Assembly: GCF_018449475.1 (NCBI RefSeq)
Contig: NZ_JAHCQH010000015.1
Coordinates: forward strand, 62,001 to 126,000
Direction: 5' to 3'
Length of the DNA: 64,000 bases
DNA from: Ancylobacter radicis
Lineage (GTDB): Bacteria > Pseudomonadota > Alphaproteobacteria > Rhizobiales > Xanthobacteraceae
This document shows, piece by piece, positions 7,462 to 17,326 of the stretch (its first letter is position 1; each line of letters starts with the position of its first letter). The position numbers were made by a program, and so were the translations under genes. The notes beneath the pieces are model-generated. The model was given only the letters and a program-made list of their open reading frames with translations, did no database searches and had not been told where the DNA came from.

Positions 7462-7503
7462 TAGAGCTTTTCCGGTGACCTGGAGTTCACCGGAAAAGCT
7501 CTA
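7462..7503. terminator. Perfect 17 bp hairpin at convergent gene ends
   Basis: Arms TAGAGCTTTTCCGGTGA (7462-7478) and TCACCGGAAAAGCTCTA (7487-7503) are perfectly complementary with an 8-base loop. The right arm contains the TAG stop codon of the minus-strand nitrilase gene. It probably acts as a bidirectional terminator or mRNA 3' stabiliser for dnaX-ebfC and the amide operon. Its GGAAAAGCTCTA end resembles the shorter element after ccoP at 27482-27501, so it probably belongs to a repeat family. Confidence 0.75.
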
Positions 7504-9237
7504 GGTGCGCCCCGGCGCGCCTAGGATGAGGTCCTGGTAGTGGTGCGGCAGTCGCATCACCATCAGATCCTTGCGGCGCACCACATTGGTGGGGTAGCGG
7601 CTGTCGAGATTGGTGGTGTCGATCTCGGCTGACGCGACACCCTCCCCCGCCGCGACGATGGCTTCCCGGCGGGGAAACTCGAACGTATCCGGCCCGAACA
7701 CGCCGCTCTTGCCCTCATAGCCGCGCAGCGGGTCGAGGACGTTCGCGAAGGCGAGAAACACATTGTTCTCGCCGGCACGGGCGCGGAAATGGTGCCAGTG
7801 GTGCGGATCCGCTCCCGTCGGGATCGGGTAGTTCTGCGCGACTTTGGTGCCGGCATGCGGGGCGGTGAAGCGCCCGCCTATCGCCGCGGGACAGGCGATC
7901 AGGTCGCAGCCGCGCAGCGCCAGCACACGCCCGGATTCGGGAAATACCGCATCATGGCCGACCAGCAGGCCGATACGGCCGAGGCGGGTGTCGAACACGC
8001 TCCACGCATCCCCGGCGCTGGCCCAGTTGCCGTCCCTGGCGTCGAGGTGGAGCTTGCGATGGGTGCCGATCAGCCCTTCCGGCCCGACCAGCACGGCGCT
8101 GTTGTAGAGCGCGGCGCCGTCCTGCTCGGCGAGGCCGGCGACGATGTACAGGCCATGCCGGGCGGCGAGCGCCACGAGCCGGTCGGTAGCCGGCCCCGGC
8201 ACGCTCTGCGCCCCCAGTGACTCGAAACCGGTGATGGCGCGCTCGGGGAACACGACGAGGTCGGCGCCGTCGGTCCTGGCCTCGATCGTGAGTTGCTCGA
8301 TCCGCGCGAGATTGGCCTCGATGTCGCCGGAGGGCGCGAACTGCGCGACGGCGACGCGCGAGCGCCGGCCGGGCGGCAGCGGGCGATGGCCGTACAGGCC
8401 GAAGAAATCGAGCGGGTTCCAGGCGAAAGTGGTGGTCGGCAATTCCATGTAAAGCTCGGGCCGGCGCTGCTCGAACACCGGCTCGTCGAACACCCGGCGC
8501 GCGCGGGCGCGCTCAAGGTCGATCTGCGCATAGGCGATGCCGTCCCCTGAATCGATGACGGCGGCGATGGAGCCATCCGGCTCGATCACGCAGCTGCCGC
8601 CGGAGAACTGCACGGTACGCTCCAGCCCCCAGCGGTTGCTCTCGATCAGATAGCAGCCATTCTCGACGGCGCGGCTGATCCAGTAGGGCGCGGGGGTGCG
8701 CTCGGCCAGCCAGTTGGAGATGTGGCAGATGACATCCGCCCCGCCCAGCGCGGCAAGGCGGGCGGTCTCGATGAAATGGATGTCCATGCAGACCAGCAGC
8801 GCGATGCGCCCGACCGGGGTGTCGAACACCTGATGGCCGAGATCGCCCGGCGCCGACCATTTTGGTTCGGAAATATAGGGATGGGTCTTGCGGTGGGTGC
8901 CGATCACCCCGTCAGGGCCGATCAGCACCGCCGCATTATAATAGAGCCCGGTGGCCGCATCGACCTCGGGCATGCCAATGACGATGTAGCAGTCATGGGC
9001 CTTCGCCACCTGGCCGAAGCGTTCCGTGGTCGGGCCGGGAATGGTCTCGACATAGGGCGCCACCTCGGCACGGTCGAACCAGCAATAGCCGGTCGTGCCC
9101 ATTTCCGGCGTCACGATCAGCCGCGCGCCGGCCTGCGCGGCCTCCACCGCCATGTCCAGCAGGCGGCCGATATTGCGCTCCTTCTCGAACATCGTCGGTT
9201 CGAACTGAACGGTTGCGACCTTCAGCGGCGTGGTCAT
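7501..9237 (-). CDS. Tandem two-domain nitrilase-superfamily amidohydrolase with a degenerate second domain
   Basis: This 578-residue protein is two carbon-nitrogen hydrolase domains fused head to tail. Domain 1 (about 1-260) has the complete catalytic set: E45 (VTPEMG), K117 (THRKTHP) and C150 (LLVCMDIHF). Domain 2 (about 293-560) keeps E332 (VVFPERA) and K395 (THRKLHL), but the nucleophile position is glycine 427 (LLVGHDAVF), so it cannot work by the usual mechanism. The first half probably hydrolyses a nitrile or amide; the second may be structural or regulatory. It is the last gene of the amide transport/formamidase cluster, which supports an amide or amide-precursor substrate. ATG 9237 is preceded by GGAG. 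The stop codon lies inside a long hairpin. Exact substrate is unknown. Confidence 0.85.
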   Translation of the reverse strand: MTTPLKVATVQFEPTMFEKERNIGRLLDMAVEAAQAGARLIVTPEMGTTGYCWFDRAEVAPYVETIPGPTTERFGQVAKAHDCYIVIGMPEVDAATGLYYNAAVLIGPDGVIGTHRKTHPYISEPKWSAPGDLGHQVFDTPVGRIALLVCMDIHFIETARLAALGGADVICHISNWLAERTPAPYWISRAVENGCYLIESNRWGLERTVQFSGGSCVIEPDGSIAAVIDSGDGIAYAQIDLERARARRVFDEPVFEQRRPELYMELPTTTFAWNPLDFFGLYGHRPLPPGRRSRVAVAQFAPSGDIEANLARIEQLTIEARTDGADLVVFPERAITGFESLGAQSVPGPATDRLVALAARHGLYIVAGLAEQDGAALYNSAVLVGPEGLIGTHRKLHLDARDGNWASAGDAWSVFDTRLGRIGLLVGHDAVFPESGRVLALRGCDLIACPAAIGGRFTAPHAGTKVAQNYPIPTGADPHHWHHFRARAGENNVFLAFANVLDPLRGYEGKSGVFGPDTFEFPRREAIVAAGEGVASAEIDTTNLDSRYPTNVVRRKDLMVMRLPHHYQDLILGAPGRT

Positions 9238-9323: not shown

Positions 9324-9406
9324 CGTCATGGCCGGACTTGTCCCGGCCATCCACGTCTTCGCGCGGGGAGGAAGGCGTGGAAGCCCGGCCCTTCGGCCGG
9401 GCATGA
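9324..9406. repeat. REP-like palindromic pair
   Basis: Two short palindromic units lie in the spacer between the nitrilase and formamidase genes. One is a GGCCGG...CCGGCC stem beginning GTCATGGCCGGACTTG, and the other is a GCCCGGCC/GGCCGGGC stem. They match the GTCAT-type repeats at 35.5, 42.4-43.0, 43.6 and 51.0 kb. As they lie within a presumed transcription unit they may form RNA hairpins that reduce expression of the downstream nitrilase. Confidence 0.7.
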
Positions 9407-9420
9407 GGGTTGGGCCTACG

Positions 9421-10410
9421 TCAGGGTGTCAGGAACGACTTCTTGATCGAGGCGCCCATCGTGTATTTCGGGTCGACCATGTTGCCGAGCCGCACCCGGC
9501 CGCACTGGGTCAGCAGCATGTAGGCGTCGATCTCCTCGAAGCCGTAATCGGCCGCCATCCAGCGGATCAGGTCGCGATAGGCCATGCGGGCGGCGTCCTC
9601 CAGCGGGCGCGAGGCACCGATCGACATGATGAAATCCTTGGTCTCCAGTCGCGGGATCTTCACCGACCAGCCCTTGATCAGGTCGATCTGCAGGGTGGTG
9701 ACGGTCGGATGCTCGATGGCGACGCCGCACAGTTCGCCGTCGCCCTGCGCGGCGTGGCAGTCGCCGAGATAGAGCAGGCCGCCCTTGATGTTCACCGGGA
9801 GATAGATCACCGCGCCGACGCCGACATCCGGCAGGTCCATGTTGCCGCCGAAATAGTCCGGCTGCAGAGCGGTGATGGCCTCGATCTCCGGCGACGTACC
9901 GATGGTGCCGATGAACGGCTCATAGGGCAGCGTGATCTTGTCGTTCCACTTCGTGCCGTTCTCGTCGATGTGGAGCTTCTTGACCCGCTCGGGCAAAGCC
10001 GGGCTGATCATGGCGGTGTCGTGGGTGGGAACGAGCCCGCCGAATTCCGGCATGATCACCGTGGTGCCGCGCGGCTGCGGGCCACGGGGCACGATGCTCT
10101 TGATATAGACCGCGAGCGTATCGCCCTTCTCCGCGCCATTGACGAAGATCGGCCCGTTCTGCGGGTTGAGATAGGGGAAGTTCAGGATCTCGCTCGGCTT
10201 GTCGGTCTCGGACTTGATCTGGCCCTCGAAAGCGTCATGCGTCTCGGCCGAGACCACCGCGCCGGGGTCGACGGTGAGCACCGGGTCGACATAGGGGCCG
10301 TAGACGTAATGATACTTGCCCTGCGACGCCTCGGTGATGGCGTAGGTCTCCCCCGCCTGGCCCTTGGCGAGGCCTTTGCGGGACATGATGGAATTTTCGA
10401 GCCAGGACAT
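9421..10410 (-). CDS. fmdA: Acetamidase/formamidase
   Basis: This predicted cytoplasmic amidase of the acetamidase/formamidase family (distinct from nitrilase-type formamidases) hydrolyses short-chain amides to ammonia and the acid. The 329-residue product has the recognisable family blocks NPQNGPIFVNGAEKGDTL, YLGDCHAAQGDGELCGVAIE and the C-terminal IDAYMLLTQCGRVRLGN. AGGAG lies seven bases upstream of the ATG at 10410. It follows the ATPase gene of a branched-chain-type ABC transporter by 40 bases. It resembles the FmdA partner of the FmdDEF short-chain amide transporter known from Methylophilus methylotrophus. Position within an AmiC/AmiR-controlled cluster supports amide induction. Confidence 0.9.
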   Translation of the reverse strand: MSWLENSIMSRKGLAKGQAGETYAITEASQGKYHYVYGPYVDPVLTVDPGAVVSAETHDAFEGQIKSETDKPSEILNFPYLNPQNGPIFVNGAEKGDTLAVYIKSIVPRGPQPRGTTVIMPEFGGLVPTHDTAMISPALPERVKKLHIDENGTKWNDKITLPYEPFIGTIGTSPEIEAITALQPDYFGGNMDLPDVGVGAVIYLPVNIKGGLLYLGDCHAAQGDGELCGVAIEHPTVTTLQIDLIKGWSVKIPRLETKDFIMSIGASRPLEDAARMAYRDLIRWMAADYGFEEIDAYMLLTQCGRVRLGNMVDPKYTMGASIKKSFLTP

Positions 10411-10450: not shown

Positions 10451-11164
10451 TCAGACCGCGAGATGGCGGCGCATGGCGGCGCCGTCGGCGAGCCCGTCGC
10501 GGTCCAGCTCGGCGACGATGCGACCCTTGTCCATGACGTAGCAACGCTGGGCCATGGCGCGGATCATGTCGATGTTCTGCTCGACCAGCACGATGGTGAC
10601 GCCGGTGGTGCGGTTCAGCTCGACCATGATGCGGGCGATGTCCTGCACAATGTTGGGCTGGATACCTTCGGACGGCTCATCCAGCAGGATCAGCGCGGGG
10701 TCGGCGATCAGCACGCGGCCAATGGCGAGCTGCTGCTGCTGGCCGCCGGACATGGTGCCGGCGCGCTGGCCCCAACGCTCGCGCAGGATCGGGAAATAGT
10801 CGAGCACGCGGTCGCGGTCGGCTTGCGTCACCGCGCGCTTCAGCATGGCGCCGACCGCGATGTTCTCGGCCACCGTCAGGCGCGGAAACACGTCGCGGCC
10901 CTGCGGCACATAGCCGACACCGAGCCGGGCGCGCTTGTGGGCGGGCAGATGCTCGACCGCCTCGCCGCGATAAATGACCGACCCGTCCATGACCGGGACG
11001 AGGCCGATCAGGCTTTTCATCAGCGTCGACTTGCCGACGCCGTTGCGCCCGATCACGGCGACGATCTCGCCCTCGCGCACGGTGAGGTCGAGGCCCTGAA
11101 GGACCGGCTTGCCGCCATAGCCGGCGCGCAGTCCGAGTGTGGAGAGCAGGACTTCCTTACGCAT
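10451..11164 (-). CDS. ABC transporter ATP-binding protein (LivF/UrtE type)
   Basis: This is the second ATPase of the amide/urea-type importer. The 237-residue product has Walker A (GRNGVGKSTL), the Q-loop (PQGRDVF), the signature MSGGQQQQLAIGR, and Walker B (LILLDEPSEGIQP), with the LivF-family SEGIQP ending. I chose ATG 11164 (RKEVLLSTLGLRAGYG) because longer frames add only arginine-rich sequence. It overlaps the end of the first ATPase gene by 8 bases, showing tight translational coupling. The whole set resembles the urea (UrtABCDE) and short-chain amide (FmdDEF) importers; the adjacent formamidase favours amides. Confidence 0.9.
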   Translation of the reverse strand: MRKEVLLSTLGLRAGYGGKPVLQGLDLTVREGEIVAVIGRNGVGKSTLMKSLIGLVPVMDGSVIYRGEAVEHLPAHKRARLGVGYVPQGRDVFPRLTVAENIAVGAMLKRAVTQADRDRVLDYFPILRERWGQRAGTMSGGQQQQLAIGRVLIADPALILLDEPSEGIQPNIVQDIARIMVELNRTTGVTIVLVEQNIDMIRAMAQRCYVMDKGRIVAELDRDGLADGAAMRRHLAV

Positions 11165-11903
11165 GTGCAGCCTCCGGCGCATCCGTCGACGGGGTGCTTT
11201 GACCGAGGTAGATGGCGGCGACGCGCTCATCGGCGACGATCTCGTCGATGGTGCCCTGCGCGAACACCTGGCCGAGATGCAGCACCGTGACCTTGTGGGC
11301 GACCTGCCGGACGAAGGCCATGTCGTGCTCCACGGCGAGAACCGTCATCCCGTCGGCATTCAGCCGCTGGATCATATCCCCCGTGGCACGGGTCTCATCG
11401 GGCGACATGCCGGCGGTCGGCTCGTCGAGCAGCAGCAGGCGCGGCTTGAGGCTGACCGCCATGCCGATCTCCAGCCACTGCTTCTGGCCGTGACTGAGAT
11501 TGCCGGCAAGCTGCTTTGCTTCGCCTTCGAGCTTGAGGAAGTCGAGCAGCCGGTCGATCTCGGCATGGAGCGCCGCCGGCGGGTAGTGCTGCTGCATCGC
11601 GATTTCCAGATTCTGCCGCACGCTCAGCGCCTTGAAGATGCCGGGCACCTGGAACTTCACACTCATGCCGCGCCGGATGCGCTTGTAGGATTTCAGCGCG
11701 GTGATGTCCTCGCCGCCGAACAGAATCTGTCCGCTGCTCGGCTGGTGCTCGCCGAGGATGAGACGGAACAGCGTGCTCTTGCCGGCGCCGTTGGGGCCGA
11801 TGAGGCAGTGGATCTCGCCCGGCTCCAGCGCGAGGTCGACATTGTTGGTGACGTGCAGGCCGCCGAAATGCTTGTTGAGCGCGCGCGCTTCGAGAAGGGC
11901 CAT
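11157..11903 (-). CDS. ABC transporter ATP-binding protein (LivG/UrtD type)
   Basis: This is the first ATPase of the importer. The 248-residue product has Walker A (GPNGAGKSTL), the signature LSHGQKQWLEIG and Walker B (LLLLDEPTAGMSPDE). LSHGQKQWLEIG and the TAGMSPDET ending are, as I recall, characteristic of the UrtD/FmdE-type urea and amide transporter ATPases rather than LivG of amino-acid transporters, which has LSYGxQRRLEI. It shares one base with the preceding permease stop (11903) and overlaps the next ATPase by 8 bases, so the transporter genes are translated as a coupled set. Confidence 0.92.
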   Translation of the reverse strand: MALLEARALNKHFGGLHVTNNVDLALEPGEIHCLIGPNGAGKSTLFRLILGEHQPSSGQILFGGEDITALKSYKRIRRGMSVKFQVPGIFKALSVRQNLEIAMQQHYPPAALHAEIDRLLDFLKLEGEAKQLAGNLSHGQKQWLEIGMAVSLKPRLLLLDEPTAGMSPDETRATGDMIQRLNADGMTVLAVEHDMAFVRQVAHKVTVLHLGQVFAQGTIDEIVADERVAAIYLGQSTPSTDAPEAAHA

Positions 11904-12961
11904 CACGCGTCTCCCCGCTTGCCGAACAGGCGGCCGATGCGGCTTGCGCCGGACAGGATCAGCCCGCGCGGGGCGATCAGCACGGTGAGCACCAGCAGGA
12001 TGCCCATCACCACCAGCGCATACTGGCTGCCATGGATGGTCAGCGCCTGGAAGGCGGAGAGCACGACCAGCGTGCCGATCAGCGTCGAGGTGATGTCCGA
12101 CCGGCCGCCGACCGCGACCCAGACGATCGGCAGCGCCGCCGCCGTCATGCCCATGCTGGAGGGCGTGATGTACTGGCCCCAGGTGGTGTAGAGCACGCCC
12201 GACAGCCCGGCGAGGGCCGCGCCAATGACGAAGGCGCCGAGCTGATATTTGCGGATGTCGTAGCCGAGCATCTCGGCGCGCTCCGGGTTCTCGCGGATGG
12301 CGACCAGCACATTGCCGAAGGACGAGTTCACCAGAATGCGCAGCAGCAGATAGACTAGCACGAGCAGGCCGAGCACGACGTAATAGAGCTGCACATCCGG
12401 GAACAGCACGATGTCGCCGCCGGGCCACGGAATGGTCAGGGGCGGCATGTTGCTCATGCCGTTGAAGCCGTTCAGCCGGGCGCTGCCGATGCGCCATTCC
12501 GGCCCCGCCGTCTGCGCCATGAAGCGTTCCAGCACCAGCGTCACCGACAGCGTGACAATGCCGAGGAACACGCCCGATATGCGCCCGAAGAACAGGAAAT
12601 AGCCGAGCAGCACCGCGAACAGCGCGGCGATGGCCACCGCCAGCACCACCGCGACCAACGTGAAGCCATAGGCGGCGCCGAAATTGATGGTGAGGATGCC
12701 GTAGCTGTAGCCGGCGATGCCGAAGAACGCCGTCTGGCCGAAGGAGAGCGCGCCGCCATAACCCCAGATCAGGCTCAGCCCGAGCGCCATGAACACCCAG
12801 GTGAAGAAGTACACCGTGTTGCCCACCGTGTAGCCATCGCTGAACTGCGGGTAGAGGCAGGCCCCCGTGAGCACGACGAGGAAGCCGATCCAGAAGCCCG
12901 GTCCGCGGCCGATGGTCTGCGGGCCTTCCAGCCGAGCGAAAAAGCGAGTGAGAGCGTTCAT
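11903..12961 (-). CDS. ABC transporter permease (LivM/UrtC type)
   Basis: This inner-membrane channel subunit pairs with the LivH/UrtB-type permease. The 352-residue product has about ten hydrophobic segments and the family signature GYGGALSFGQTAFFGIAGYSYG near residues 66-88. It also has the cytoplasmic coupling loop VAIRENPERAEMLGYDIRKYQLGAFVIGAALAG, in which the EAA-like helix contacts the ATPase. It starts 17 bases after the previous permease and its stop overlaps the ATPase start by one base. Substrate is inferred from the cluster to be short-chain amides or urea. Confidence 0.92.
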   Translation of the reverse strand: MNALTRFFARLEGPQTIGRGPGFWIGFLVVLTGACLYPQFSDGYTVGNTVYFFTWVFMALGLSLIWGYGGALSFGQTAFFGIAGYSYGILTINFGAAYGFTLVAVVLAVAIAALFAVLLGYFLFFGRISGVFLGIVTLSVTLVLERFMAQTAGPEWRIGSARLNGFNGMSNMPPLTIPWPGGDIVLFPDVQLYYVVLGLLVLVYLLLRILVNSSFGNVLVAIRENPERAEMLGYDIRKYQLGAFVIGAALAGLSGVLYTTWGQYITPSSMGMTAAALPIVWVAVGGRSDITSTLIGTLVVLSAFQALTIHGSQYALVVMGILLVLTVLIAPRGLILSGASRIGRLFGKRGDA

Positions 12962-12978
12962 TGATTCCTGTCCCCGGC

Positions 12979-13851
12979 TCAGGCGCGTTCGCGCAGCAGG
13001 AAGCCGGAAATGCCCTTGGGCAGAACCCGGATGACGATGATGACCGTGACCAGCAGGCCGATCTGGCCGAACAACTGCCCCTGCCAGGAGGTCATCACCG
13101 ATTTCACCACCGCCAGCACGGCGGCGGCCGGCGCGGTGCCGAGGAAGACGTCCGCCCCGCCGACGACGACGGTGACGAAGGCTTCCATGATGAAGGTCGT
13201 GCCCATGGTCGGCACCAGCGTCATGGTCGGTGCGTAGAGCCCGCCCGTGAGCCCCGCCAGTCCCGCGCCGAGAGCGAAGGTCAGGCTGTAGACGAGGCGG
13301 GTGTCGACGCCGAGCGCGGCGGCCATATGCGGTACCTGGATGGTGGCGCGCGCCATCACGCCGAAGCGGGTCCAGTTGAACAGCGCGTAAAGCCCGGCCA
13401 GCACCGCCAGCGCCATGAAGAACAGCACGAGGCGGTAGAGCGAGTAGGAATAGCCGCCCATCTGGAAGCTGCCGAACGGCGTGCCGACCCCGGCCATGGT
13501 GGAGCCGAGCAGGATCAGCGTGCCCTGGGTGGCGATCAGGCTGAGGCCCCAGGTGGCGACGATGGTGTCGAGCGGGCGCTCATACAGATGCCGGATGACG
13601 ATGAGCTCCACCAGCGCGCCGACCATCGCGGAAACGATGGCACCGCAGGCGATGGCGAGCGGCAGCGGCAGCCCGGTATGGGCGACCGAGACCGTCACAT
13701 AGGCCCCGCACATGATGAATTCGCCATGGGCGAGGTTGATGACGCCCATCATGCCGAAGATCACGGCGAGCCCGCAGGCGGACAGCACGAGAAAGGCGAA
13801 GGCATCGCCGAATTGGTACAGGGCGGAAAAGGCGAGTGTCCCGACATCCAT
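12979..13851 (-). CDS. ABC transporter permease (LivH/UrtB type)
   Basis: This is the other inner-membrane subunit of the importer. The 290-residue product has about eight transmembrane segments and the family signature MGVINLAHGEFIMCGAYV in the first third, plus RALGVDTRLVY-like and VGGADVFLGT segments matching LivH/UrtB proteins. At 290 residues it is the usual length and lacks the large periplasmic insertion found in some UrtB proteins. It is separated from the binding-protein gene by 131 bp that hold two strong hairpins, which may set a lower level of permease relative to binding protein. Confidence 0.92.
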   Translation of the reverse strand: MDVGTLAFSALYQFGDAFAFLVLSACGLAVIFGMMGVINLAHGEFIMCGAYVTVSVAHTGLPLPLAIACGAIVSAMVGALVELIVIRHLYERPLDTIVATWGLSLIATQGTLILLGSTMAGVGTPFGSFQMGGYSYSLYRLVLFFMALAVLAGLYALFNWTRFGVMARATIQVPHMAAALGVDTRLVYSLTFALGAGLAGLTGGLYAPTMTLVPTMGTTFIMEAFVTVVVGGADVFLGTAPAAAVLAVVKSVMTSWQGQLFGQIGLLVTVIIVIRVLPKGISGFLLRERA

Positions 13852-13892
13852 GTGCGGTGGGGCCCATTAGCTCGACGACGAAAAGGAAGGGG

Positions 13893-13965
13893 ATCGCCCC
13901 GGCGCAGAGGGGGTCATAGCCGGGGCGATGTTGGCGGATGCCGCCGAAGGGGAAGCGGCATCCGC
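13893..13965 (-). promoter_or_regulatory. Two tandem intercistronic hairpins
   Basis: In the spacer between the binding-protein gene and the first permease, an 11 bp perfect inverted repeat (ATCGCCCCGGC at 13893-13903 with 13919-13929) is followed by another 11 bp perfect one (GCGGATGCCGC at 13934-13944 with 13955-13965). Neither has a U-run, so they are more likely mRNA stabilisers than full terminators. Such hairpins downstream of binding-protein genes commonly keep that part of the message abundant. Confidence 0.65.
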
Positions 13966-13982
13966 GAAAGGTCAGCCCGCGA

Positions 13983-15221
13983 TCAGGGCTTGGGCGGCGG
14001 ATTCGAGGGCGTGTACTGCGCGCTCGGGTCGCTCTTGGTCAGGTCGCAACCGGCTTCGCCCAGCCAGTAGGGCTTGATGTCCTCCCACACCTTCGGGAAG
14101 GTGATGGAGTGATCCGCGCCCACCTTCGCCAGATAGATGGTGTGCGACATGTGTTGGCTCTTGGGGTCGAGGCAGACCTTGCCCTCGGGCGCGTCCATGC
14201 AGACATCGCCCTTGGCGATCTCCTTGCGCAGGTCGTCGCGCTTGGTCGACTTCGCGCGCTCGACCATCTGCTTGTAGAGATAGACGGCGAGATACGAGTT
14301 CTCGGCCTCCTGGTTCACATAGGGCTCGTCCGGGAACTTCGCCTTGAACTTGGCGAAGAACGCCTTGGAGGCCGGCGTGTCGATTTCCTCGATGTAATTG
14401 GTGGTGACGTACATGTCCTTGAGCGATGGCGGCTTGAAACGCTTGTGCTCATAGCCCTGGCCGACATTCACCGAGGAGGCCATCGGCAGGTTCACGCTCG
14501 CGGCAGCCGCCTGCTCGTAATAGGAGGCCTGCGCGGTGCCGACGAGCAGCGTCACCACGAAATCGGGCTTGGCCTTCTGGATGTTCTGGATGTTCTGCGA
14601 GAACTGCGACACGCCGAGCGGGATGAAATCCTCGCCGACCATTTCGCCGCCATTCTCCTTGACGATGTTGCGCACCCATTCGGCCGAGATCTGGCCGAAA
14701 TTATAGTCGGCGGCGAGCGTGTAGACCTTCTTGCCGTACTTCTCCATCATCCACGGGATGAGGGTGGAGAACTGCTGCTCGGGCACCGCGCCGGTGACGA
14801 TCATGTTGGCGTCGCAGACGCCGCCTTCATACTGGTTGTTGTAGAAGGCGAGGCCGTCGAACTGGTTGACGATCGGCCGGTAGGCCTCGCGCGAGGCGGA
14901 GGAAAAGCCGGCGAACACCGCGTCGACCTTGTCGCGCTGGAGCACGCGGCGCATGAACTCCTGGTAGCGGGTGTTGTCGGACTGGGTGTCGTAGATCACC
15001 AGTTCGAGCGGGCGGCCATCGATGCCGCCAGCCTTGTTGATTTCTTCCGCCGCCAGCTGGATCGCGTGGACCTTGCCGATGGTGGCGGCGGCGAAGTCGC
15101 CGGACTGGTCTTCCAGAACGCCGAGCTTGATCGGGTCGGCCGCAAAGGCCACCCCGCTGCCGAGCACAAGCGTCCCCGAGAGGGCTGCGGCACGCAGCCC
15201 CCGCATGATCTTCCCAGACAT
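13983..15221 (-). CDS. Periplasmic amide/urea-type substrate-binding protein
   Basis: This is the periplasmic receptor of the importer. The 412-residue precursor has a signal peptide: a basic start, a hydrophobic core, and an AFA-ADP cleavage site near residue 28. The mature part begins DPIKLGVLEDQSGDFA and has the type I periplasmic fold of UrtA/FmdD/AmiC proteins, including YTLAADYNFGQISAEW and the conserved FAGFSSASREAYRPI loop. Two cysteine pairs near the C-terminus may form disulfides. GAGGAGA precedes ATG 15221. It begins only 21 bases after amiR, so no separate leader control is possible here. Substrate is inferred from neighbours. Confidence 0.9.
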   Translation of the reverse strand: MSGKIMRGLRAAALSGTLVLGSGVAFAADPIKLGVLEDQSGDFAAATIGKVHAIQLAAEEINKAGGIDGRPLELVIYDTQSDNTRYQEFMRRVLQRDKVDAVFAGFSSASREAYRPIVNQFDGLAFYNNQYEGGVCDANMIVTGAVPEQQFSTLIPWMMEKYGKKVYTLAADYNFGQISAEWVRNIVKENGGEMVGEDFIPLGVSQFSQNIQNIQKAKPDFVVTLLVGTAQASYYEQAAAASVNLPMASSVNVGQGYEHKRFKPPSLKDMYVTTNYIEEIDTPASKAFFAKFKAKFPDEPYVNQEAENSYLAVYLYKQMVERAKSTKRDDLRKEIAKGDVCMDAPEGKVCLDPKSQHMSHTIYLAKVGADHSITFPKVWEDIKPYWLGEAGCDLTKSDPSAQYTPSNPPPKP

Positions 15222-15242: not shown

Positions 15243-15905
15243 TTATTTCCGGTCGGCGCGCGGCAGGGGTAGGGCCTGTTCGTGCGCCGTCGGGTCGGGC
15301 GTTGTCGCCCTGCTGCGCAGATACTGCTCGCAGTAATCTTCGAGGTTCAGCCGCGCGCGCATGCTCTCGCGCCGCAGCCGGTTGTAGGCTTCGTCGTCAT
15401 CGACCCCCGCATCCGTCATCAGGGCTATGATCGCCTTGACCACCGAGCGACGGCCGCGGCGGCGACGTTCCATATCCTCCAGCCGGCCATGCATGTCGCT
15501 GCGCAGCAGGAACTGGTTGATGCCGAGGAACAGCGCCGTGTAGACGGCGGCGCCATGCACGGGCTTGCGCAGGAACGCGGTCGCCCCGAGATTGATCAGG
15601 TTCCTCAGCCGGCTCGGCGCCTCGACACCGACCAGCCCGATGACCGGCACGCGCGGCAGCCGGGAGACTTCATCGGGCTCCGGCGTTCCCGTGACGTCGA
15701 GATCGCCATCGATGAAGACGATGTCGCGCTCGGCATTGAGGGGGCTGAAGTCGATCTCCGCCCGCGCATCCACAATTTCAGGATATTCCGCCGTAACGCC
15801 AAGCTTGGCGAGCGTCATATCGAGGGACACCACCGCGCTGCGATTGGCCGTGACAATAAGCGCCCGGCCGCCATTGAAGTTCTGAAGCAGGCGAGGAGCC
15901 ATCAT
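15243..15905 (-). CDS. amiR: AmiR-type transcription antiterminator (ANTAR domain)
   Basis: This is an RNA-binding positive regulator of amide genes. The 220-residue product has a receiver-like N-terminal domain (about 13-125) that lacks the acidic phosphorylation pocket of a true receiver. A coiled linker follows, and then a C-terminal ANTAR domain (about 145-205) with the helical pattern AIIALMTDAGVDDDEAYNRL and LEDYCEQYL. In Pseudomonas aeruginosa, AmiC holds AmiR inactive until amide binds; AmiR then prevents termination in the leader RNA. The ATG at 15905 overlaps the amiC stop by four bases (ATGA), consistent with a stoichiometric complex. It is followed by the transporter genes, so the regulators are the first genes of the unit they probably control. 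Confidence 0.9.
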   Translation of the reverse strand: MMAPRLLQNFNGGRALIVTANRSAVVSLDMTLAKLGVTAEYPEIVDARAEIDFSPLNAERDIVFIDGDLDVTGTPEPDEVSRLPRVPVIGLVGVEAPSRLRNLINLGATAFLRKPVHGAAVYTALFLGINQFLLRSDMHGRLEDMERRRRGRRSVVKAIIALMTDAGVDDDEAYNRLRRESMRARLNLEDYCEQYLRSRATTPDPTAHEQALPLPRADRK

Positions 15906-17059
15906 CTTACCACTCTCAGATTTGGAGTTCGGGAAGAGACTGCGTAGCGCGGAGACGAGGTGACGAGGTAAGGGTCGGGCCGCACGGGGGCCGGTTCTTC
16001 GACAATGATGTCGAAGCGCGCTTTTTCCGTGGAGCGGCCGATGCGCGGCGTCAGCCATGCATGCAGCGTCTGCGGGTCGATCCACACATCGCCCTGGGGA
16101 GCCTGGAGGCGCTGTCGCGTCACCGCCTGCTTCACCGCGGCCACTTCGTCCGTGCCCGCATCGTGCAGCGCCCGCAGCAGCAGCTTCACGGCAATATAGG
16201 AGGCTTCGGCGTCGGCCGAGGTCGAGGGCCCCTCCGGGAAAGCGGCGTCATAGGTGCCGGTGAAGACGGCATTGGCGGGGTTGTCGAGCGTCGAGAAATA
16301 GACGCTGGACGACAAATGCCCGTCGACGGCCTCCTCGCCGATCTCCTCCAGTTCCGGCTCGGACAGCGTGCAACTGGCCACCGGGATAGACTTGGCCTGG
16401 TCGATGCCCCGCTCCTTGCAGGCGGCACGGAACAGCCGGAAGAAGGCATAGGCGCTGGTGCCGATCAGATTGTTGAAGACGAAATTCGGCCGCGCCTCCA
16501 ATATCGCCTCGACAACCTGCTGAAGCTCGGTGTCGCCGATGGCGGCATAGCGTTCGGCCAGCACCTGCCCGCCCTGCGCGGTCATCGCCTCGCGGAAGAT
16601 ACGGTTGTTCTCCCACGCCCAGATGTAATTGGAGCCGACGCAGAAGGCGCGGGGACCGACATTGGCGAGCATATGAGCGACCAGCGGCAGGACATGCTGG
16701 TTCGGCGAGGCACCGGTATAGATGACGTTGTTGGAGCTTTCGAAGCCTTCATAATGCGAGGGATACCAAAGCAGCGCGTCGTGCTTCTCGAAGCACGGAA
16801 TGACTTCCTTGCGGCTCGACGAGGTATAGCAGCCGACCACATGGCGGATGCCCGACGCGATCAGTTCCTGGCTCAGCTCGGCATAGCGGTTGAGATCGCC
16901 GCCCGGATTGACCACGACCGGCTCGATGGTGAAATCCGCGCCCAGAGCCGCACTTTCGCGGCACGCCAGCAGCGCACCGTTCAGCATCGAGCGCGCCACC
17001 ACGGCATAGGGCCCGGTGGTTGAGAACATCACTCCGATGCGATGATGCGTCGACGACAT
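15902..17059 (-). CDS. amiC: AmiC-type amide sensor, negative regulator of AmiR
   Basis: This cytoplasmic amide-binding protein with a periplasmic-binding fold sequesters AmiR. The 385-residue product lacks a signal peptide (it begins SSTHHRIGVMFSTTGPYAVV), which separates it from transport receptors. It contains typical AmiC/UrtA segments such as GCYTSSSRKEVIPCFEKHDALLWYPSHYEG and AFCVGSNYIWAWENNR. It is the first gene after a 267 bp spacer holding a terminator and small hairpins. Gene order amiC-amiR-transporter-formamidase suggests that amides entering the cell relieve termination of the whole cluster. Confidence 0.92.
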   Translation of the reverse strand: MSSTHHRIGVMFSTTGPYAVVARSMLNGALLACRESAALGADFTIEPVVVNPGGDLNRYAELSQELIASGIRHVVGCYTSSSRKEVIPCFEKHDALLWYPSHYEGFESSNNVIYTGASPNQHVLPLVAHMLANVGPRAFCVGSNYIWAWENNRIFREAMTAQGGQVLAERYAAIGDTELQQVVEAILEARPNFVFNNLIGTSAYAFFRLFRAACKERGIDQAKSIPVASCTLSEPELEEIGEEAVDGHLSSSVYFSTLDNPANAVFTGTYDAAFPEGPSTSADAEASYIAVKLLLRALHDAGTDEVAAVKQAVTRQRLQAPQGDVWIDPQTLHAWLTPRIGRSTEKARFDIIVEEPAPVRPDPYLVTSSPRYAVSSRTPNLRVVR

Positions 17060-17070
17060 TGTTCAAGCCC

Positions 17071-17144
17071 AAAATAAAAAAACGCCCGCCGGCCGATATG
17101 CCGTGGGCGTCGCTGCCGCCAGCCTGACAGGTGCTCGATCGCAC
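17071..17144 (-). promoter_or_regulatory. amiC leader: intrinsic terminator with competing hairpins, candidate AmiR target
   Basis: On the minus strand, ACGCCC pairs with GGGCGT (17105-17110 with 17082-17087) around an inner GGC/GCC stem with a six-base loop. It is followed directly by a U-rich run (17071-17081), a good intrinsic terminator about 12 bases before the amiC start. Upstream, GGC-AGCGAC-GCC (17106-17117) overlaps the terminator's 5' arm, so the two are mutually exclusive. Its loop has A at position 1 and G at position 4, as in ANTAR targets, but the stem is only three base pairs. A further hexaloop hairpin GTGC-GATCGA-GCAC lies at 17131-17144. The terminator is clear; the AmiR site is a proposal. 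Confidence 0.6.
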
Positions 17145-17326
17145 ATGCTCGCTGGAAATAATGCGTTGAATGGCGCGTTAGTGGGCAACTTTGCCCGGCG
17201 CCGTAAAAATAGGCTCGCGCGGAACGCGGGACTTGTCAAGCACTAAGTCGCCACCGCAACGCGCCGCCTTGCGCTCCTGCGGATCGCGTCCTTGAAAGCG
17301 ACTTCTGCGCCGGCGCCGCGCCGCCC

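Follow-up and report, generated by a model that had tools for sequence, protein, structure and literature searches.

The window, the whole 64,000-nucleotide stretch of Ancylobacter radicis DNA that was analysed, contains a gene that encodes two nitrilase domains in one chain, the second with a glycine at the position of the catalytic cysteine. The locus raises the questions of whether this second domain is catalytically dead, how old the loss is and what would keep such a domain in place.

Two nitrilase domains in one chain

The double nitrilase gene begins with an ATG at 9237 and is read on the minus strand; plus-strand frame 1 of 7501-9237 is interrupted by stops. A preliminary description had given these coordinates correctly, leaving the strand unstated, and all six of its residue numbers agreed with the window protein: E45, K117 and C150 in domain 1, and E332, K395 and G427 in domain 2 (Table 1). 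CN_hydrolase (PF00795) was the sole Pfam family in the protein and was matched twice, above the curated cut-off. In the scan of the same genome, domain 1 scored 181.3 bits and domain 2 scored 120.5 bits, each above the cut-off by itself. The protein fell below the cut-offs of two NCBIfam models: the one-domain, 345-position aliphatic amidase model of the AmiE type (NF009802; 83.7 vs. 427 bits) and nitrile_Arch (NF040852; 289.4 vs. 500 bits), which was nonetheless the best-scoring model. By sequence family the double nitrilase belongs to the nitrilase superfamily. The two domains shared 35% identity over 267 columns, in an alignment that paired Gly427 with Cys150. Domain 1, as read from its sequence, carries the full set of residues for superfamily chemistry.

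Table 1. Positions in the window of the double nitrilase gene, its parts and the genes of its cluster.
Feature	Position	Strand	Basis
Terminator-like hairpin, 17 pairs, beginning at the stop codon	7462..7503	-	Consensus match only
Double nitrilase CDS, 578 aa	7504..9237 (stop codon 7501-7503)	-	Two CN_hydrolase matches, family E 1.2e-88
Domain 1, residues 1-265	8443..9237	-	Complete Glu45-Lys117-Glu124-Cys150 set
TGC codon, nucleophile Cys150	8788..8790	-	Sequence read
Linker, residues 266-291	8365..8442	-	Model confidence lowest at 271-277
Domain 2, residues 292-578, putative pseudo-nitrilase domain	7504..8364	-	Alignments, model
GGC codon, Gly427 at the domain 2 nucleophile position	7957..7959	-	Alignment, 119 doubles
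Domain 2 insert region, residues 456-489	7771..7872	-	Alignment with remote doubles, models
Acetamidase/formamidase-family protein (FmdA_AmdA)	9421..10410	-	Pfam; below NCBIfam FormamaseFmdA cut-off
Urea/amide-type ABC transporter UrtE, D, C, B, A	10451..15221	-	UrtA above TIGR03669 cut-off; other four below cut-offs of best Urt models
ANTAR-domain regulator (AmiR-like)	15243..15905	-	ANTAR 4.5e-10; AmiR_N 4.7e-4, below cut-off; start picked by eye
AmiC-like sensor, periplasmic-binding-protein fold	15902..17059	-	Peripla_BP_5 1e-128; name AmiC from place beside ANTAR gene

Loss of the domain 2 cysteine and its age

The near set consisted of the window protein and the best 80 of 151 relatives confirmed in a scan of genome contigs (62-81% identical). 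Position 150 was Cys and position 427 was Gly in all 81 sequences; position 332 was Glu in 79, and position 395 was Lys in 75 and Gln in six. A wider set contained 119 distinct doubles including the window protein, the other 118 being 25-83% identical to it. These came from 150 double ORFs, 31 of which were dropped for an identical 380-residue core, and a double was counted only if the profile matched from position 30 or earlier to position 440 or later, so truncated doubles were left out. Remote doubles from searches of relatives and plasmids (about 25-38% identical) included proteins of Priestia, of Novosphingobium and of various proteobacterial genomes, and an intermediate one (55%) came from Pantoea. 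The genome searches, by protein and by profile, covered the phylum of the window with a maximum of three or six candidates scored per genome, and Bacillota was represented by three named records only.

In domain 1, E45, K117 and C150 were present in 119/119 doubles, and position 124 was Glu in 102 and Asp in 17. In domain 2, Glu332 was present in 116, Lys395 in 105 (Gln in 11, Ala in three) and an acidic residue (Asp or Glu) at position 402 in 114. The domain 2 nucleophile position was Gly in 118 doubles, Ala in one (L191) and Cys in none; all queries were Gly-type doubles, from which a Cys-Cys double of a distant branch could have escaped. As a control, all 34 single-domain nitrilases compared, drawn from this genome and its relatives, had Glu, Lys and Cys in the same columns; these loci were taken from the best-scoring family matches and lean to canonical enzymes. 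Nine further single-domain relatives in the tree set also carried Cys. Among the ten CN_hydrolase matches of the genome itself, nine had Cys at the nucleophile place (L001-L003, L005, L006, L008, domain 1, L196 by motif only, and L197), and domain 2 alone was without it. L197 (C9:274000-275700) is a divergent nitrilase-like sequence that keeps Cys and has no Glu at the place of Glu45, possibly a degenerate member.

The preliminary description had called domain 2 catalytically dead and had named homologues with Cys at this position as evidence to the contrary. The comparison of homologues found no such Cys, and with the cysteine missing from 119/119 doubles and kept in 34/34 controls, the claim of a dead, degenerate domain held. 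The Cys-to-Gly change is thus fixed in the double nitrilases examined. Because the catalytic cysteine was found in 0/119 second domains, domain 2 is classed, on sequence, as a pseudo-domain of the nitrilase superfamily and not as a nitrilase enzyme.

In two trees built with the nucleophile column omitted, the second domains fell on one side of a branch, with support of 99/95 in the first (20 second-domain rows) and 98/95 in the other (18 second-domain rows). This branch spanned the near and remote subfamilies. The first tree used 66 of 86 rows and the other 53 chosen rows, with long branches in both. First domains formed two groups in the 66-row tree and one weak group (58/78) in the 53-row tree, and a tree joining first and second domains as one group was not rejected (p-AU 0.425, 53-row set). 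The fusion may have arisen by tandem duplication. Pairwise distances of domain 1 and domain 2 tracked one another (Spearman 0.91 among 42 representatives, with pairs that are not independent). A single clade of sampled second domains fits one old loss, and the simplest reading would be one fusion and one old loss of Cys followed by descent as a unit.

In 105 pairs of 15 sequences (the window protein and L009-L022), the median dN/dS of domain 1 was 0.203 and that of domain 2 was 0.224. Both domains are under purifying selection, and domain 2 is kept and is not decaying. Across the whole family the mean majority share was 0.647 in domain 2 vs. 0.750 in domain 1. The dead half seems to be an ancient component held by selection rather than a fresh mutation. 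The family has a nucleophile-less half in all members examined, under selection, and spans several bacterial classes and two phyla; two active sites should not be assigned to double nitrilases.

Predicted packing and possible role of domain 2

The full-length AlphaFold2 model had a pLDDT of 88.3 and a pTM of 0.89; the structure alignments took in 46 of the 81 near sequences. Domain 1 of the model matched Pyrococcus 6ypa_D with Z 39.3 and rmsd 1.3 over 260 aligned residues. Domain 2 modelled alone (pLDDT 80.7, pTM 0.83) matched the same chain with Z 34.2 and rmsd 3.9 over 245 aligned residues, and its fold is predicted to be intact. The top-ranked solved structural matches of both domains were Pyrococcus PH0642 (1j31), 6ypa (deposited as an amidase, with glutaramide) and 3ivz (deposited as a nitrilase), which were also the top-ranked solved sequence matches of domain 1. 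Unlike the double nitrilase, these Pyrococcus CN hydrolases are single-domain chains without a fusion. Two sequence searches of solved structures listed chains (60 of 65 matches in one, 58 in the other), and none of those listed spanned both domains.

Block-mean pLDDT differed between domain 2 alone and the full protein in three places: the insert at 456-485 (37-45 alone vs. 77-80 with domain 1 present), the stretch around and after Gly427 at 426-445 (80-81 vs. 89-95) and the C-terminal tail at 556-575 (50-55 vs. 57-70). Residues 296-395 stayed at 92-98 with or without domain 1. Such local drops without domain 1 are expected if the insert, the stretch after Gly427 and the tail pack on domain 1, and the models suggest that the insert and the helices following the dead site are in contact with domain 1. 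Part of the drop may be general, the model of domain 2 alone being weaker overall. Seven of the 50 structural alignments listed for the full model had a range that ran from domain 1 to 552-570 at the C-terminus of domain 2, which suggests that this tail lies on domain 1. The insert (456-489) was much shorter in the remote doubles aligned, L129 excepted, so any role of the insert would not be general.

We infer from these observations that domain 2 is probably, if not securely, a pseudo-subunit that packs on domain 1 and stabilises it, with the amide chemistry confined to domain 1. In the proposed mechanism, Cys150, activated by Glu45, would attack the amide (or nitrile) carbon with assistance from Lys117 and Glu124. 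Domain 2 would take no part in catalysis since glycine stands for its cysteine, and would instead act as a built-in partner, packed on domain 1 where a homodimer would have its second subunit. The helices after Gly427, the insert and the C-terminal tail would hold domain 1 in working shape. A pseudo-subunit that permanently supplies contacts would explain the retention of a dead domain and would make this family a clean case of an enzyme pair turned into an active/pseudo-subunit pair in one chain. Of the structural or pseudoenzyme role put forward in the preliminary description, the partner role fits the models, in both the confidence differences and the aligned ranges. The allosteric role and the replacement of the homodimer interface also raised there are conjectural, and the full-length double nitrilase may itself dimerise.

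Contacts between nitrilase units have a parallel in beta-ureidopropionase of human and fly, a nitrilase-like enzyme with a Glu-Lys-Glu-Cys tetrad like the set in domain 1 (extracts of PMC10741476). According to these extracts, the C-terminal helix of the human enzyme largely mediates the 'mutual hugging' of the dimer subunits, and the fourth catalytic residue lies on a loop ordered via dimer-dimer contacts; contact from one nitrilase unit to another can therefore affect activity. In the same extracts, subunit contacts control at least one superfamily member that is well studied (PMC10741476). As a parallel for holding the active site of domain 1 the comparison would be loose, because the active-site loops there are ordered by dimer-dimer contacts and not by the dimer contact (same extracts, PMC10741476). 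The subunits of beta-ureidopropionase are identical and active, in contrast to the fused active/dead pair of the double nitrilase.

Gly427 itself could have a positive role. The nucleophile of nitrilases sits on a tight turn, which is strained, and glycine could have been selected there for the stability of the fold once catalysis was lost. In favour of this explanation, the place of the lost Cys is taken by Gly in 118 of the 119 doubles and by Ala in one, rather than by a scatter of residues, but one ancestral change inherited by all would explain the uniformity too. We regard such a role as possible though doubtful; it is compatible with domain 2 as a pseudo-subunit.

Domain 2 might instead regulate domain 1 by binding a ligand: its emptied pocket, with Glu332, Lys395 and the acid at 402, would bind a small amide, substrate or product uncut and switch domain 1 on or off. 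Consistent with this, domain 2 is under purifying selection and its pocket residues are conserved, Glu332 at 97.5% (93rd percentile within domain 2) and Lys395 at 88% (84th percentile). The retention of Glu332, Lys395 and the acid at 402 is perhaps more than a structural block needs and leaves room for ligand binding. The conservation is incomplete, however: Lys395 gives way to Gln or Ala in the doubles counted above and position 402 is non-acidic in 5/119, and a buried Glu and Lys may serve the fold alone. Dead paralogues that activate a live one exist, namely the prozyme of trypanosome AdoMetDC (extracts of PMC5201418) and deoxyhypusine synthase, DHS (extracts of PMC3663545). In both, as here, a dead copy is kept beside a live one; these are other enzymes, on separate chains, for which those extracts report regulation, and regulation by domain 2 would be an analogy. 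We consider this regulatory role, the main rival of the pseudo-subunit, unlikely. A narrower form, in which the pocket, including Gly427, serves as a built-in sensor that binds the amides or products of the cluster and gates domain 1, seems slightly less likely again; if true, the double nitrilase would be a single-chain, self-regulated amidase, an intramolecular counterpart in the nitrilase superfamily of the prozyme systems.

Catalysis by domain 2 with another nucleophile, such as one of two cysteines close to the old site (Cys444 and Cys449) or a Ser, His or Asp, is highly improbable. Cys444 occurred in 79/81 and Cys449 in 76/81 near sequences, but L085 has Val444 and Ala449, L099 lacks Cys449, and L100, L117 and L129 lack both. 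The two cysteines were rejected as nucleophiles, not being conserved among the members aligned. Asp429, present in 81/81 near sequences, is no new nucleophile since its counterpart is Asp152 in domain 1 and Asp or Glu in the ordinary nitrilases of the control set. The preliminary description had named activity of domain 2 through an alternative nucleophile as a refutation; with its candidate cysteines not conserved, a second active site appears very unlikely. A sequencing error or recent point mutation of the strain at position 427 was ruled out, with a probability that is practically nil, by Gly in 81/81 near sequences and the absence of Cys in 119/119 doubles.

The domain arrangement differs from that of other nitrilase-domain fusions, in which a nitrilase domain is likewise joined to a second domain but the partner is not a nitrilase domain; NitFhit and NAD synthetase, also by their entry names, are of this kind. 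Among titles and the starts of abstracts in the open-access literature, a scope that most subscription journals fall outside, no tandem or dead nitrilase domain was described. Papers found there dealt with other subjects, namely the NIT2/NIT1 genes that lie in tandem in Arabidopsis and a reverse transcriptase of phage defence that carries a nitrilase domain. The plasmid records consulted annotate double nitrilases as 'nitrilase-related carbon-nitrogen hydrolase' or 'amidohydrolase'.

Gene cluster, substrate and distribution

The double nitrilase gene is the last of a same-strand series that runs, 5' to 3', from the AmiC-like sensor through the ANTAR regulator, UrtABCDE and the FmdA-family protein. 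The hairpin at its stop codon likely marks the end of the operon by its sequence; it had the longest stem of five terminator-like sites in the region, where shuffled sequences had a mean of 4.7 sites. In the leader of the AmiC-like gene (17060-17160, minus strand), a G+C-rich hairpin is followed by seven T ending 16 bases before the start codon, an arrangement that would fit ANTAR-controlled antitermination. The leader as a whole folded no better than shuffles (z -0.58). Where the FmdA-family gene gives way to the double nitrilase gene, the intergenic gap contains a short inverted repeat, noted by eye at 9324-9351 on the minus strand.

The preliminary description had proposed a substrate that yields amides. 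Neither line of evidence on the substrate supported this: the cluster combines an AmiC-type sensor and ANTAR regulator, a urea/amide-type transporter and an acetamidase/formamidase-family protein, and the nearest solved relatives of domain 1 are archaeal enzymes, deposited as a nitrilase and as an amidase with glutaramide. Because of this cluster content and these relatives, the double nitrilase would, by analogy, be at least as likely an amidase as a nitrile-consuming enzyme. On gene context, a small amide or amide-like compound would be the likeliest substrate. The aliphatic amidase AmiE is a nitrilase-superfamily enzyme. Its operon contains amiC and amiR (extracts of PMC13209695), and AmiC- and AmiR-like genes also lie beside the double nitrilase. 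The available extracts of that paper, on plasmid amidase operons, describe AmiE operons, and the word 'nitrilase' does not occur in them (PMC13209695).

The double nitrilase family is patchy in distribution: matches at E 1e-60 were found in 5/385 genomes of the class, 9/398 of the phylum and 31/198 of the family. Among 70 near-relative loci with full 8-kb flanks, all eight neighbour genes were found at 47 under strict identity limits; under looser limits, an AmiC-like gene was near 64, a UrtA-like gene near 65 and an FmdA-like gene near 49. Sixteen of 80 loci, mostly in Rhizobiaceae, had diverged AmiC-like and Urt-like genes and no FmdA gene, and one of them (L079) was also without a UrtC match. 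The ANTAR protein of the window had no match in these 16 loci at E 1e-15, although an ANTAR gene is annotated in A. fabrum C58. Rhizobiaceae loci, among them the one on the At plasmid of that strain, have the double nitrilase after Urt-type genes and without FmdA. At four loci (L040, L045, L052 and L065) neither AmiC nor UrtA was found; at L040, five of six neighbour ORFs, picked as the longest and possibly in wrong frames, had no Pfam match. The double nitrilase of L066, which has a short downstream context, adjoins hydantoinase-type genes. FmdA is not required, and neither companion is universal. The conserved cluster as a proof of the substrate was weakened by these differences in gene context between loci.

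Other settings were seen among plasmids and remote doubles. In L161 (6680-11744, a Pantoea plasmid), the double nitrilase has a cytosine-permease gene on one side and a substrate-binding/ANTAR gene pair on the other. Neither a Urt transporter nor an FmdA gene was seen in this stretch, which hints at a different substrate. The neighbours of a remote double nitrilase in L166 (4652-11123) are an NMT1-type binding protein, an ABC ATPase and a BPD_transp_1 permease, which make up a transporter type unlike Urt. The Klebsiella michiganensis plasmid pK342-KPC (L131), typed as conjugative, carries the cluster in full (Urt, FmdA, AmiC, ANTAR and double nitrilase), with an IS3-family transposase gene on each side and an IS26-type one farther out. 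Other Klebsiella plasmids match the double nitrilase too, and in some the match ends near residue 518 of 578. A remote subfamily of doubles (L191 from 1353 onward and L192 from 1350 onward), to which the double with Ala at the dead position (L191) belongs, has an N-terminus that looks hydrophobic and signal-like by eye, so these proteins may be exported. Near and remote double nitrilases occurred together in four genomes of the family (G861, G768, G903 and G914, with remote copies L121, L122, L124 and L128), so the two subfamilies coexist in one genome.
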